Shown piece by piece: positions 24,481 to 44,165 of a stretch of DNA of 64,000 nt. Numbering within the stretch: the first letter of the stretch is position 1; each line of letters begins with the position of its first letter. Origin of the DNA: an uncultured Allomuricauda sp. (GTDB lineage: Bacteria; Bacteroidota; Bacteroidia; Flavobacteriales; Flavobacteriaceae); NCBI RefSeq assembly GCF_947495325.1, contig NZ_CANLYK010000001.1, positions 62,001-126,000 of the forward strand, written 5' to 3'. The notes below the pieces were generated by a model. The model was not told the origin of the DNA, ran no database searches, and worked only from the letters and a program-made list of their open reading frames with translations. The position numbers and the translations under genes are program-made.

Positions 24481-24861
24481 TTAGATGTTCGGGATGACCA
24501 AAACTTGATCAGGATGAATCACATCCGGATTCTTTAGGATATTTGTGTTGGCATCAAAAATCTTGTTGTACTTCATAGCATCACCATAGTAATGCTTTGC
24601 AATTTTGCTTAAAGACTCACCACTTTTTACCGTATGTCTGTGATAGACAGAATCGTCGGCAACAGAAATGTTTGCCTTAACATCAGAAGGGCTTTGACCA
24701 CCAATCTCCTTGATTTTGTCCCAAATAGCATTTTTTTCATAAGGCGTGTTGGCCACTCCCTTAATTTTTAGAACCCCTCCATCTTCAGATACATCACCGT
24801 CCTTTATGCCTAATTCTTGTCCTAAATCTAAAACTGCTTGATATTTTGCTTTTGCACTCAT
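24481..24861 (-). CDS. BON-LysM protein, Kbp (YgaU)-like
   Basis: 126-residue protein without a signal peptide. The first half (about 20-68, with [28 protein letters not shown]) resembles a BON domain and the C-terminal 50 residues are a LysM module ([34 protein letters not shown]). This size and order match E. coli Kbp/YgaU, a cytoplasmic potassium-binding protein. Other bacteria annotate such proteins as peptidoglycan-binding, which would need export. Function by analogy only. Monocistronic, with a terminator and a palindrome downstream. Confidence 0.82.
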
Positions 24862-24976
24862 AATTTTCTCAATTGTTTTAATGGTTACTATTAAGAAACA
24901 ATATATGTATAAAAGTCACATTTTAGCAGAAATTCATGCTAATTATTATCACAATTAAATAAGTGGACCCTATGGG

Positions 24977-25007
24977 TTTGTAAAACAAGTAATTAATTGT
25001 ATTTTTG
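24977..25007 (+). promoter_or_regulatory. rpsA promoter
   Basis: -33 TTTG (24977-24980), 19-base spacer and -7 TATTTTTG (25000-25007), a close fit to the Bacteroidota consensus. Transcription should start near 25014, giving a leader of about 105 bases. Confidence 0.75.
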
Positions 25008-25026
25008 CACTCCTTTTTAACGAATA

Positions 25027-25100
25027 ACAAGAGAAAAAGGGAAAGAAACATAATTTAACAACTTCTGCAATAATCGTTTAGCTCTTGTAAAATTGCAGAA
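25027..25100 (+). promoter_or_regulatory. Interlocking inverted repeats in the rpsA leader (candidate pseudoknot)
   Basis: Two perfect inverted repeats interlock. Stem A pairs ACAAGAG (25027-25033) with CTCTTGT (25082-25088). Stem B pairs TTCTGCAAT (25063-25071) with ATTGCAGAA (25092-25100). The order A5', B5', A3', B3' defines an H-type pseudoknot, or two mutually exclusive hairpins. It ends 19 bases before the S1 start codon, followed by an A/T-rich unstructured stretch. S1 autoregulation through its leader is known in E. coli; a role here is inferred. Confidence 0.55.
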
Positions 25101-25119
25101 TACAAATTTAAATCAGCAC

Positions 25120-26988
25120 ATGGCTGAAGAAAAAAAAGAAGTCGAGGTATTGGAAAATACCGAAGCCCAACTAGAAGCTACCGAAACATCTCAAGAGGTT
25201 AGCGAAACCAAGGAAGAAACTCCAAAACAAGACCCCCAAGAATATTTAGAGAATTTTGACTGGGAAAAGTACGAAGAAGGAATTGAGCGCGTAGACGATA
25301 CAAAGCTTAAGGAATTTGAAGAACTTGTGGAGGAAAATTTTGTTGATACCGCTGATGAAGAAGTGGTTCAAGGAAAAGTAGTTCACATGACAGACCGTGA
25401 GGCTATCATTGATATCAATGCAAAGTCTGAAGGTGTTATTTCGTTGAACGAGTTCCGTTACAATCCAGACCTTAAGGTTGGAGATAAAGTTGAAGTACTT
25501 ATAGATATCCGTGAAGACAAAACTGGGCAACTGGTACTGTCTCACAGAAAGGCAAGAACAATCATGGCTTGGGACAGAGTTAATGCTGCCCATGATAAAG
25601 AAGAGATTGTTCAAGGTTTTGTAAAATGCAGAACCAAAGGAGGTATGATTGTCGATGTATTTGGAATTGAGGCTTTCTTGCCAGGATCTCAAATCGATGT
25701 TAAACCTATCCGTGATTACGATCAGTATGTTGGTAAGACCATGGAATTCAAGGTGGTTAAGATTAATCATGAGTTCAAAAACGTAGTTGTTTCGCACAAA
25801 GCGTTGATTGAAGCTGATATCGAAGAACAGAAGAAGGAAATCATTGGTCAGCTTGAAAAAGGACAAGTATTGGAAGGTATCGTTAAGAACGTTACTTCAT
25901 ATGGTGTCTTTATTGACCTTGGTGGTGTTGATGGATTGATTCACATTACAGATCTTTCTTGGAGTAGAATCAACCACCCGAATGAAGTTGTTGAGCTGGA
26001 CCAGAAATTAAATGTGGTAATCCTTGATTTTGATGATAACAAATCAAGAATCCAATTAGGTCTTAAACAATTGGAGAAACATCCATGGGATGCATTGGGT
26101 GATGAAATAAAAATTGGCGACAAAGTTAAAGGTAAGGTTGTGGTTATTGCAGACTACGGTGCCTTTATTGAAGTTGCCGAAGGTGTAGAAGGATTGATTC
26201 ACGTTTCTGAAATGTCATGGTCTACGCACTTACGTTCCGCTCAGGATTTCGTAAGCGTTGGCGATGAGGTTGAAGCGGTTGTATTGACCTTGGATAGAGA
26301 AGATCGTAAGATGTCTCTAGGTATCAAACAATCAACTCCAGACCCATGGACGGATATTACTTCTAAATACCCTGTAGGTTCAAGACACAAAGGAATTGTT
26401 AGAAACTTTACCAATTTTGGTGTGTTTGTAGAAATGGAAGAAGGAATTGATGGATTAATCTATATTTCTGATCTTTCTTGGACCAAGAAAATTAAACACC
26501 CATCTGAATTTGTAGCCGTTGGTGATACTTTAGAAGTTGAAGTATTGGAATTGGATGTTGAAGGACGCAAATTAAGCCTTGGTCATAAACAAACTACAGA
26601 GAATCCTTGGGACAAGTATTCTGCTGAATTTGCAGAAGGAACTGTTCACAAAGCAGCGATTGCTGAAATTGTTGATAAGGGAGCTACCGTTAATTTCAAT
26701 GAGGATATTGTAGGATTTGTTCCTTCAAGACACATGGAGAAAGAAGATGGCAAGAAAGTTGGCAAAGGTGAAGAAGTAGAATTTAAGATCATTGAGTTTA
26801 ATAAAGATTTTAAACGTGTGGTAGCAAGTCATACGGCAATCTTTAGAGAACAAGAAGAACGCAACGTAAGCACAGCTAAAAGAAAGGCTGCTGCTTCTGC
26901 AGAGGAGTCCAAAACCACTCTTGGTGATGCAAACTCGCAATTGCAAGCGTTGAAAGATAAAATGGAAGCAGATTCTAAAAAGAAGTAA
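25120..26988 (+). CDS. rpsA: 30S ribosomal protein S1
   Basis: 622 residues from the ATG at 25120. A longer frame opening with TTG at 25093 would start inside stem B of the leader, so it is rejected. An acidic N-terminal tail of about 50 residues (EEKKEVEVLENTEAQ) is followed by six S1 (OB-fold) repeats. Repeats 3-5 carry the clearest RNA-binding signatures (GIVKNVTSYGVFIDLGGVDG, GKVVVIADYGAFIEVAEG, GIVRNFTNFGVFVEMEEG); repeats 1, 2 and 6 are divergent. It binds mRNA on the 30S subunit. It has its own promoter, a structured leader and a strong terminator, so it is a single-gene unit. Confidence 0.96.
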   Translation: MAEEKKEVEVLENTEAQLEATETSQEVSETKEETPKQDPQEYLENFDWEKYEEGIERVDDTKLKEFEELVEENFVDTADEEVVQGKVVHMTDREAIIDINAKSEGVISLNEFRYNPDLKVGDKVEVLIDIREDKTGQLVLSHRKARTIMAWDRVNAAHDKEEIVQGFVKCRTKGGMIVDVFGIEAFLPGSQIDVKPIRDYDQYVGKTMEFKVVKINHEFKNVVVSHKALIEADIEEQKKEIIGQLEKGQVLEGIVKNVTSYGVFIDLGGVDGLIHITDLSWSRINHPNEVVELDQKLNVVILDFDDNKSRIQLGLKQLEKHPWDALGDEIKIGDKVKGKVVVIADYGAFIEVAEGVEGLIHVSEMSWSTHLRSAQDFVSVGDEVEAVVLTLDREDRKMSLGIKQSTPDPWTDITSKYPVGSRHKGIVRNFTNFGVFVEMEEGIDGLIYISDLSWTKKIKHPSEFVAVGDTLEVEVLELDVEGRKLSLGHKQTTENPWDKYSAEFAEGTVHKAAIAEIVDKGATVNFNEDIVGFVPSRHMEKEDGKKVGKGEEVEFKIIEFNKDFKRVVASHTAIFREQEERNVSTAKRKAAASAEESKTTLGDANSQLQALKDKMEADSKKK

Positions 26989-27108: not shown

Positions 27109-27648
27109 ATGAGTGAAAAAGTACTTCTTACTTCAAAAGAAATCAACATTATACTGCACCGGTTGGCTTGTCAACTTTTAGAAAACCATCTAGACTTCAC
27201 GAATACCGCACTTATAGGACTCCAGCCTAGAGGTATTTTTCTTGCAGAACGATTGACAAAAATCCTGAAAGAAGAGTATAAGGTAAAGAACATAGACCTT
27301 GGCTCCTTGGATATAACCTTCTATAGGGACGATTTTAGACGAGGTGAAAAAACCTTGGAAGCCAATACGACCAAAATAGATTTTTTGGTGGAGGACAGAA
27401 ATGTGGTCTTTATTGATGATGTGCTGTACACTGGAAGAAGCATACGAGCTGCTCTAACGGCAATTCAATCCTTTGGAAGACCATCTGATATTGAATTGTT
27501 AACCTTAATCGATAGAAGGTTTAGTAGACATTTACCAATCCAGCCAAATTATAGAGGAAGGCAGGTAGATGCTATAAATGAAGAAAAAGTAAAGGTGATG
27601 TGGGAGGAAAATGACGGAAAAGATATTGTGTATTTAGTAAGCAAATAA
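27109..27648 (+). CDS. pyrR: PyrR: pyrimidine operon regulator / uracil phosphoribosyltransferase
   Basis: 179-residue type I phosphoribosyltransferase of the PyrR family. The PRPP-binding loop VVFIDDVLYTGRSIRAAL covers about residues 99-116; the family motif LIGLQPRGIFLAERL (35-49) and SLDITFYRDD are also present. In Firmicutes it binds pyr mRNA to cause attenuation and has uracil phosphoribosyltransferase activity. Here it lies 6 bases upstream of pyrB. The predicted leader is too short to hold an attenuator, so the enzymatic role may dominate. A 7-codon ORF (27089-27112, stop overlapping the pyrR ATG) precedes it. Confidence 0.94.
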   Translation: MSEKVLLTSKEINIILHRLACQLLENHLDFTNTALIGLQPRGIFLAERLTKILKEEYKVKNIDLGSLDITFYRDDFRRGEKTLEANTTKIDFLVEDRNVVFIDDVLYTGRSIRAALTAIQSFGRPSDIELLTLIDRRFSRHLPIQPNYRGRQVDAINEEKVKVMWEENDGKDIVYLVSK

Positions 27649-27654
27649 ATTAAA

Positions 27655-28581
27655 ATGAGTGAATTAAGTGTAAATCACTTACTAGGAATTAAGTATCTGA
27701 ACAAAAAGGATATAGACCTCATTTTTGAAACTGCGGACCATTTTAAGGAAGTCATCAATCGTTCTATTAAAAAAGTACCTACGCTTAGGGATATCACAAT
27801 AGCGAATATCTTCTTTGAAAACAGTACCCGCACAAAACTCTCTTTTGAATTGGCTGAGAAACGGCTGTCAGCAGATGTCATTAATTTTTCTGCTTCGCAG
27901 TCATCTGTTAAAAAGGGGGAGACGCTCATAGATACCGTAAACAACATTCTTTCCATGAAAGTGGATATGGTGGTCATGCGCCATCCAAACCCAGGAGCAG
28001 GAATATTTCTCTCAAAACATGTGGAGGCATCGATAATAAATGCTGGAGACGGAGCGCACGAACATCCAACCCAGGCATTGTTGGACACCTATTCCATAAG
28101 AGAAAAGCTTGGAGATGTTGGAGGTAAAAACATTGTGATAGTTGGTGATATTTTACATTCCCGAGTAGCACTCTCCAATATCTTTGCCTTAAAATTACAA
28201 GGAGCTAATGTGAAAGTATGTGGACCAAGAACATTACTTCCCAAGCATATTGAGTCGCTAGGGGTGAAGGTTGAAACAAACTTAAGAAAAGCTTTGGAAT
28301 GGTGCGATGTTGCAAATATGCTACGTGTACAAAATGAGCGAATGGATATTAGTTATTTCCCTTCAACACGAGAGTATACCCAACAATTTGGGGTAACCAA
28401 AAAACTATTGAACAGCTTGAACAAGCAAATTGTAATTATGCACCCTGGACCAATCAATAGAGGGGTAGAAATTACAAGTGATGTTGCAGATTCCAATCAA
28501 TCCATTATATTGGAACAGGTTGAGAACGGTGTGGCCATTCGCATGGCAGTAATCTATTTATTAGCGGCAAAAATAAAATAA
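27655..28581 (+). CDS. pyrB: Aspartate carbamoyltransferase catalytic chain
   Basis: 308-residue ATCase catalytic subunit, making N-carbamoyl-L-aspartate from carbamoyl phosphate and aspartate, the first committed step of pyrimidine synthesis. Carbamoyl phosphate motif S57-T-R-T60 (FENSTRTKLSFE), the 80s loop with K86-K87, RHPNPGAG, H137-PTQ-A and a C-terminal HPGPINRGVEI are present. No pyrI regulatory chain is nearby. It is the second gene of the pyrR unit, and one base separates it from the next ORF. Confidence 0.96.
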   Translation: MSELSVNHLLGIKYLNKKDIDLIFETADHFKEVINRSIKKVPTLRDITIANIFFENSTRTKLSFELAEKRLSADVINFSASQSSVKKGETLIDTVNNILSMKVDMVVMRHPNPGAGIFLSKHVEASIINAGDGAHEHPTQALLDTYSIREKLGDVGGKNIVIVGDILHSRVALSNIFALKLQGANVKVCGPRTLLPKHIESLGVKVETNLRKALEWCDVANMLRVQNERMDISYFPSTREYTQQFGVTKKLLNSLNKQIVIMHPGPINRGVEITSDVADSNQSIILEQVENGVAIRMAVIYLLAAKIK

Positions 28582-43862: not shown

Positions 43863-44165
43863 ATAGCAGGCCGCCTTATCGCTGCAATTTCAATTAATTG
43901 GAATTGAAGAGGAAAGTCCGGACACCAAAGTGCAGCATAGCGGGTAACGCCCGTCCGCCGAAAGGTGAGGACCAGTGCAACAGAAAGCAAGTACAGTTAG
44001 GCTGTAGTGAAATCAGGTAAACTCTATGCGGTGAAACGTCATGTAAACCAATGTTTGAGGGCTGCACGCCCAAATTGGAGGGTAGGCGGTTGGAACTTTT
44101 GGGTAACTGAAAGTCTAGATAAATGATAGGGCCAGACAGAATCCGGCTTATGGCCTGCTTTTTTT
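43863..44165 (+). ncRNA. rnpB: RNase P RNA (bacterial type A)
   Basis: Catalytic RNA of RNase P. P1 pairs GCAGGCC (43866-43872) with GGCCTGC (44152-44158). The universally conserved GAGGAAAGTCCGGAC (P4 5' strand and CR-I) starts at 43909, and the matching 3' conserved segment (AGACAGAATCCGGCTTAT) runs 44134-44151. Other conserved pieces include ACAGAAAGCAAGTACAG and AGGTAAACTC. Length of about 300 bases fits type A. The closing P1 stem plus T-run (44159-44165) doubles as its terminator and reaches the stop codon of convergent rsmD. Confidence 0.95.

Follow-up and report, generated by a model that had tools for sequence, protein, structure and literature searches.

A covarying, predicted pseudoknot in the rpsA leader of Bacteroidia, with ribosomal protein S1 as its putative ligand

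The leader of rpsA, the gene for ribosomal protein bS1, very probably adopts an interlocked, pseudoknotted fold, which is kept across many relatives despite differing letters, as judged from an alignment of related leaders. The element, found in a stretch of 64,000 nucleotides from an uncultured Allomuricauda sp. (contig NZ_CANLYK010000001.1, positions 62,001 to 126,000; hereafter the window), would be a cis-acting structured RNA of about 95 nt that starts at, or within 1–2 bases of, the inferred rpsA start. Our comparisons suggest a ribosomal leader with an unusual fold and S1 as its putative ligand, and we lean towards the view that bS1 controls its own translation through it.

The rpsA locus and its promoter

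The rpsA gene occupies 25120..26988 on the + strand, and its product (622 aa) matched the NCBIfam model NF004953 ('30S ribosomal protein S1') with 942.5 bits against a cut-off of 720; the S1 domain PF00575 was matched in six stretches of it. The first-pass annotation had described a good promoter here. We found one of the Bacteroidetes type, consisting of a −33 element, TTTG (24977..24980, + strand), a 19-base spacer and a −7 element, TATTTTTG (25000..25007, + strand); the consensus is TTTG and TANNTTTG (PMC6847099; citations here and below refer to the accessible parts of the papers named). Among related leaders (the best 80 of 589 candidates), TAnnTTTG lay at most 260 nt from the ATG in 80 of 80. 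In F. johnsoniae, 4–5 nt commonly separate the −7 element from the start (PMC6847099), a spacing that would place the rpsA transcription start at 25012–25013 and make the leader about 108 nt long, three times the F. johnsoniae average of 33 nt (PMC6847099).

A LysM-like protein is encoded divergently upstream (24481–24861, − strand; below the curated cut-off). Downstream of rpsA lies pyrR (27109–27648, + strand; above the curated cut-off), followed by an open reading frame at 27655–28581 (+ strand) that we take to be pyrB. Among 80 loci (the best 80 of 589), the divergent LysM gene was present in 67, pyrR in 60 and pyrB in 55. The fetched flanks of the other 20 loci held no pyrR, and the element therefore tracks rpsA. 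We rejected a role in pyrimidine or PyrR regulation on the same count of 20 of 80 flanks, a few of these loci being cut by contig ends. Transcription attenuation by an intrinsic terminator was likewise rejected: a GC-rich hairpin with a U run behind it would be expected ahead of the gene, and positions 24900–25200 contain no terminator-like site on the + strand and one on the − strand (25127–25113).

A search of the window with Rfam 15 at the gathering scores returned RNase P RNA only, far from the leader (43863–44165; bacterial class A, 207.1 bits), an ordinary copy. A permissive Rfam 15 search added three sub-threshold matches to eukaryotic RNAs (− strand, E ≤ 5), and 20 diverse rpsA loci gave 0 matches.

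Four interlocking helices

The first-pass annotation had reported two interlocking exact inverted repeats in the leader, and both are there. ACAAGAG (25027..25033) is the perfect complement of CTCTTGT (25082..25088), and TTCTGCAAT (25063..25071) that of ATTGCAGAA (25092..25100); we call these helices P2 and P4. Nineteen bases separate the end of P4 from the ATG at 25120. Beyond these repeats we identified two further helices, P1 and P3, and a conserved UACAAA. All parts lie on the + strand, and along the RNA the arms follow one another as P1a, P3a, P2a, P1b, P4a, P3b, P2b and P4b, then UACAAA. The 5′ arm of P1, CCTTTTT (25012..25018), stands where the RNA is inferred to begin, and its 3′ arm, AAAAAGG (25034..25040), directly abuts the 5′ arm of P2. 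P3, recognised from pairing and covariation in the alignment, joins AACGA (25019..25023) to TCGTT (25074..25078), which lies inside the P4 loop, as does the 3′ arm of P2. The 3′ arm of P4 likewise rests on pairing and covariation in the alignment, and it is followed by the unpaired UACAAA (25101..25106, positions −19 to −14) and a 13-nt linker to the start codon (25107..25119). An A-rich joining segment precedes P4 and ends in TTTAAC (25054..25059). Among 30 family representatives, an A was present at −6 from P4 in 25 and at −5 in 22; a C at −1 was favoured by our parser and is hence no evidence.

In the window leader no base is common to any two of P1–P4. In the predicted fold P2 interlocks with P4, and P1 with P2, without a common base, as in an H-type pseudoknot. 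The first-pass annotation had offered two mutually exclusive hairpins as the other option; since four helices without a common nucleotide could coexist in the predicted fold, exclusive refolding is not needed.

Judged from the window sequence alone, the interlocking helices were suggestive only. Interlocking exact helices of 7 and 9 bp arose in 14 of 3,000 dinucleotide shuffles of the window leader, whereas any exact 7-bp helix arose in 1,585 and any exact 9-bp helix in 171, and the pseudoknot-free folding energy of this leader was not unusual (z −0.07). An ordinary nested folding energy and the frequency of 7-bp helices in shuffles are what one would expect of inverted repeats that had arisen by chance in a leader rich in A and T and were conserved as sequence only. 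The single-sequence case being modest, the comparison with relatives decides.

Covariation among near relatives

Using the rpsA protein as query, we obtained 80 named loci, the best 80 of 589 candidates, mostly from Flavobacteriaceae; these near relatives and the window make up a set of 81 leaders, whose start codons had been placed beforehand. A segment of 94–110 nt running from CC[CT][CT]TT to ATACAAA was present in 81 of 81 leaders (best 80 of 589 plus the window); these were the strings used for cutting the segments, and there was no leader without ATACAAA. The segments were aligned by sequence only, with structure not used (alignment A1). RNAalifold on A1 found P4, plus P1 one column off the register that we chose; P2 and P3, which cross the RNAalifold helices, were recognised by reading A1. 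An exact P4 helix at ATACAAA had at least 6 bp in 78 of the 81 leaders and 4–5 bp in the other 3 (best 80 of 589 plus the window).

Pairing in these leaders was specific to the proposed registers. Over the four helices, 87.9% of cells in the 81 leaders were paired, versus 41.5–57.5% when partners were slid by 1–3 columns; by helix, the paired fraction on A1 was 82.5% for P1, 86.0% for P3, 85.5% for P2 and 95.1% for P4. Cells changed on both sides numbered 296, compared with 111.6 in shuffles (0 of 500 shuffles reached this), and the covariation score was 0.452, compared with 0.262 (again 0 of 500). A weaker measure, the count of pairs showing a double change, was 19 against 16.2, and 31 of 500 shuffles reached it. 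On A1, double changes occurred in all 7 pairs of P2 and in 6 of the 8 pairs of P4.

We also used a null based on the rpsA coding-sequence tree, with 400 simulated alignments and change counts matched per column. This test took 101 of the 122 alignment columns, or 5,050 column pairs, and the top six of these all belonged to P4, P2 or P3: P4 pairs ranked 1, 4, 5 and 6, the P2 pair 23–102 ranked second and the P3 pair 15–88 third. Seven non-neighbouring column pairs reached E < 0.05, four in P4, two in P2 and one in P3; four pairs of neighbouring columns also did so and look like alignment shifts. P1 had no significantly covarying pair in the 81 leaders (ranks 651–3391 of 5,050).

The mismatches tell which strand folds. 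G-U cells outnumbered A-C cells in P4 (74 versus 3), P3 (51 versus 8) and P2 (52 versus 29), which argues that the folding molecule is RNA transcribed from the + strand. The P1 columns showed the reverse (43 G-U versus 69 A-C), consistent with misaligned runs of T and A. Helix length was a weak test of P2: a helix of at least 6 bp, G-U allowed, formed with the own loop in 79 of 81 leaders and with 61% of shuffled loops.

By compensatory change, the comparison establishes P2, P3 and P4 as conserved helices of the + strand RNA. P1 is likely to be real, on weaker evidence than the other three. Compensatory changes in both stems, which the first-pass annotation had put forward as the check, are present, P2 and P4 covarying in the 81 leaders under both the shuffle and the tree-based nulls; the pseudoknot that it proposed has thus been maintained by evolution. 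Since both nulls point to compensatory change in P2, P3 and P4, and the P2 region pairs jointly over 30 families as described below, chance repeats are a vanishingly improbable account. A 5′ UTR RNA secondary structure conserved with covariation is also what is expected of an r-leader.

Distribution in the class and the order

The rpsA gene was located in 193 of 198 genomes of the class Bacteroidia and in 136 of 148 of the order Flavobacteriales, and among those 193 and 136 matches we read 113 leaders from 60 families. A family-level covariance model was a poor detector across the class, with matches in only 5 of 295 genomes, a yield probably explained by the small number of candidates scored in each, and class leaders were therefore read upstream of rpsA. 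We defined the core as a hairpin (P4) that ends exactly at ATACAA; the 5-mer TACAA alone is weak, with a 21% chance of occurring in 100 nt. The core was present in 67 of the 113 class leaders, versus 2.1% of shuffled leaders: in 46 of 51 leaders and 14 of 16 families of the order, and in 21 of 62 leaders and 16 of 44 families of the class outside it. It thus occurs in 30 of the 60 sampled families.

The parsed core was missing in 28 of the 44 sampled families of the class outside the order, so rpsA does without the element in many relatives. Several of the 46 leaders without a parsed core had an uncertain start codon and one (L177) was cut by a contig end; the count of 67 is, if anything, low. 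L149 was left out (contig end), and L138 and L151 carry a badly placed 5′ end. The order leaders without a core were five: L177 (family f85), L190 (f83) and L196–L198 (f86). The f86 genomes are reduced, at about 0.6 Mb, and the core was absent from the rpsA leader in 3 of 3 (L196, L197 and L198, the last of which gave no ATG).

Tests of whether a leader pairs best with its own partner used one representative for each of 30 families, drawn from the 67 parsed leaders: the window for its own family (f1), otherwise the leader with the longest P4. The 5′ region carrying P2 and P3 paired with its own P4 loop at a mean of −8.89, compared with −6.39 (sd 0.41) after permutation, and 0 of 20,000 permutations matched this. 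Against shuffles of the own loop, the P2 region was exceeded by 0 of 300 sets over the 30 families (Fisher p 5.5e-7), an effect seen jointly: only 8 of 30 representatives reached p < 0.05 individually, and the own partner ranked first in only 3 of 30. In the own-partner permutation across the class, P1 gave 19 of 20,000. For P3, 3 of 300 was reached over 14 families of the order, two of which had no P3. The class-wide permutation for P4 is biased, because P4 was selected by its own pairing, and is not proof. Perfect P2 partners of unrelated sequence were found in different families, among them GGTTTGAA/TTCAAACC, GGATTGC/GCAATCC, GGGTGA/TCACCC and TAAGGAT/ATCCTTA. The first-pass annotation had called the element lineage-specific; a P4 core in 30 of 60 class families, with P2 pairing to its own partner jointly over 30 families, speaks against this.

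Other leader types were seen in the class. Five leaders (L117, L118, L125, L139 and L144) had no P4–TACAA core and kept TTAACC or TTTAACC no more than about 55 nt upstream of the ATG, in many cases with ATTT after it; this motif is a possible common contact for S1 or the ribosome. In family f41 (L142, L152, L153 and L156), the leader was a short hairpin directly after the promoter, with arms of 5–8 nt (for example, CCCTA...TAGGG and GTTCCGA...TCGGAAC), followed by AAAGGAG, which is Shine–Dalgarno-like, in a class said not to recognise such sequences.

Outside the class, the core was found near the placed start in 0 of 40 leaders, 19 of which had no start candidate or several; a scan of whole stretches gave 1 of 40, a weak match of 5 bp at the far upstream end (L255). 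Fifteen of these 40 leaders, read by eye, carried TTAACC or a variant (TCAACC or ATAACC) and then a hairpin (L249, L251, L262, L266–L271, L273–L276, L278 and L285). The loop of this hairpin, CTCTC, is complementary to a GAGAG beside a Shine–Dalgarno-like GAAGG or AAAGG just before the ATG, and its stem varies with pairing kept, loop and partner being nearly constant. The arrangement looks like a pseudoknot that would block the Shine–Dalgarno sequence at the S1 gene, and our guess is that the genomes are Chlorobi-like. An ancient S1 sensor could be common to Bacteroidia and these relatives, P4 being the UUAACC hairpin whose loop was re-wired from the Shine–Dalgarno-adjacent GAGAG to P2 and P3 upstream, with UACAAA and its spacing taking over; we regard this as quite doubtful. 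If true, an S1 feedback switch would have outlived the loss of Shine–Dalgarno recognition by changing its pairing partner.

Association with rpsA and possible S1 feedback

To assess where the element occurs, we used a covariance model, R1, that contained P1 and P4 only, on 38 related genomes at E ≤ 1. It gave 28 matches in 27 of the 38 genomes, of which 27 lay directly at rpsA; the 28th (E 0.78) lay away from rpsA, and otherwise there was never more than one match per genome. R1 is one family-level model, and distant copies at other genes could escape it. Such a steady position upstream of an r-protein gene is a further property of r-leaders.

The presence of the element only at rpsA (27 of 28 matches), together with the binding of pseudoknots by E. 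coli S1 (PMC7708055), makes S1 autoregulation the best inference, and one that we hold to be moderately probable. The folded leader domain would be a preferred docking site of bS1. When S1 is limiting, 30S subunits carrying S1 would dock at the leader and initiate without Shine–Dalgarno pairing; a surplus of free S1 would occupy or remodel the leader and block docking, and rpsA translation would drop. The net effect would be translational negative feedback. In E. coli and its gammaproteobacterial relatives, rpsA is under translational repression by its own product (PMC10931766). S1 has nanomolar affinity for an H-type pseudoknot obtained by SELEX, and it also binds the pseudoknots of tmRNA, preQ1 and rpsO RNA (PMC7708055). 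Adding F. johnsoniae bS1 in vitro raised initiation twofold on one mRNA without a Shine–Dalgarno sequence and had little effect on rpsU (PMC9976891). Recognition by S1 in gammaproteobacteria has been ascribed to AU-rich single strands (PMC10931766), which would require no knot, and this counts against the feedback reading.

The leader might instead sense another signal, such as a small molecule, another protein or the state of free 30S subunits or ribosomes, and regulate rpsA accordingly. Compact multi-pseudoknots with conserved unpaired letters, as seen here, are in the style of small riboswitch folds. Of the 28 model matches, 27 lie at rpsA and not at biosynthetic or transport genes, and the gene downstream varies, 20 of the 80 loci showing no pyrR in the flank retrieved; both points make a different ligand distinctly improbable.

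Distance to the start codon

Of 53 class leaders with a core and a single start candidate, 49 had 9–15 nt between the core and the ATG. In 12 of the 81 leaders (best 80 of 589 plus the window; L053, L058, L060–L062, L068, L070, L073 and L076–L079), from Algibacter, Bizionia, Aequorivita and similar genera, 52–72 nt separated ATACAAA from the ATG instead of about 13. By single-sequence folding this stretch formed a hairpin in 12 of 12 (z −1.8 to −5.3, mean −3.0), leaving 11–15 unpaired nt ahead of the AUG, a length similar to that in the other leaders; RNAalifold on these 12 core-to-ATG stretches gave no consensus. What is kept therefore seems to be how far a folded domain stands from the AUG. 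In superposed E. coli structures, bS1 domain 4 could meet the mRNA at −12 to −15 (PMC6847099), and by this analogy UACAAA, at −19 to −14, would sit about where ribosome-bound bS1 meets the mRNA.

A near-constant spacing of 9–15 nt would also fit a constitutive standby or docking element, in which the pseudoknotted 5′ domain brings in S1 bound to 30S subunits and raises rpsA translation without responding to free S1. Bacteroidia do not recognise Shine–Dalgarno sequences (PMC9976891 and PMC6847099), and in E. coli tisB a pseudoknot is essential for standby and S1 binds the standby elements (PMC7708055). The traces expected of S1 feedback are also those expected of a constitutive translation enhancer. 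A general enhancer would, however, be expected at other highly translated genes, whereas 27 of 28 matches lie at rpsA, a point that itself rests on one family-level model and does not cover distant copies elsewhere. We consider constitutive docking unlikely. The fold could also act as a 5′-end stabiliser that sits at about +1 and protects a long-lived mRNA, with secondary effects on translation, and the 5′ arm of P1 does coincide with the inferred transcription start. Stabilisation would leave unexplained both the near-fixed distance from the 3′ end of the fold to the AUG and the 12 leaders in which an extra hairpin keeps a similar distance, and we judge it highly unlikely.

Significance and comparison with known systems

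We know of no defined natural S1 site in Bacteroidia. One proposal for this class is that mRNA recognition has passed to bS1 (PMC6847099). A pseudoknotted, covarying leader at the S1 gene itself, in 30 of 60 sampled class families, is a candidate high-affinity S1 site, and it opens the question of what S1 reads in mRNAs without a Shine–Dalgarno sequence to direct testing in F. johnsoniae, a species with purified bS1 and gfp reporters available (PMC9976891). If it is an S1 leader, it would lie outside the gammaproteobacteria. Among the matches listed by our literature search, which covered few subscription papers, there was no S1 leader in Bacteroidetes and none reported elsewhere outside the gammaproteobacteria.

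Among the closest known systems is the rpsA initiation region of E. coli and other gammaproteobacteria, which concerns the same gene, depends on leader structure, has no canonical Shine–Dalgarno sequence and is repressed by S1 itself (PMC10931766). It differs in its fold, described as specific, containing AU-rich single strands and conserved across several gammaproteobacterial families (PMC10931766). The accessible part of that paper mentions no pseudoknot for rpsA, and we set the two folds apart by description only. The F. johnsoniae gene for bS21, rpsU, is likewise an r-protein gene under translational feedback in Bacteroidia blind to Shine–Dalgarno sequences; there, feedback works through an extended Shine–Dalgarno sequence and ribosomes without bS21, on a 25-nt leader (PMC9976891), and 'pseudoknot' has 0 occurrences in the available text of that paper.

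The tisB +42 mRNA of E. coli resembles the rpsA leader in carrying a pseudoknot near the mRNA 5′ end that acts through S1 in initiation (PMC7708055). By contrast, it serves a single toxin gene, and its standby region lies about 100 nt upstream of a sequestered ribosome-binding site (PMC7708055), whereas the fold described here stops 13–19 nt short of the start codon of the gene for S1 itself. The r-leaders of Eckert and Weinberg (2020) are similar as structured, covarying 5′ UTR elements before r-protein genes (PMC7247131). Their table of new motifs includes L13 and S4 leaders in Bacteroidia and S4, S15 and S16 leaders in Flavobacteria; the part shown has no S1 leader, and 'rpsA' and 'pseudoknot' have 0 occurrences in the accessible text (PMC7247131). 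Under their rule for leaders found before one r-protein gene only, S1 would be named as the ligand of the rpsA leader (PMC7247131).
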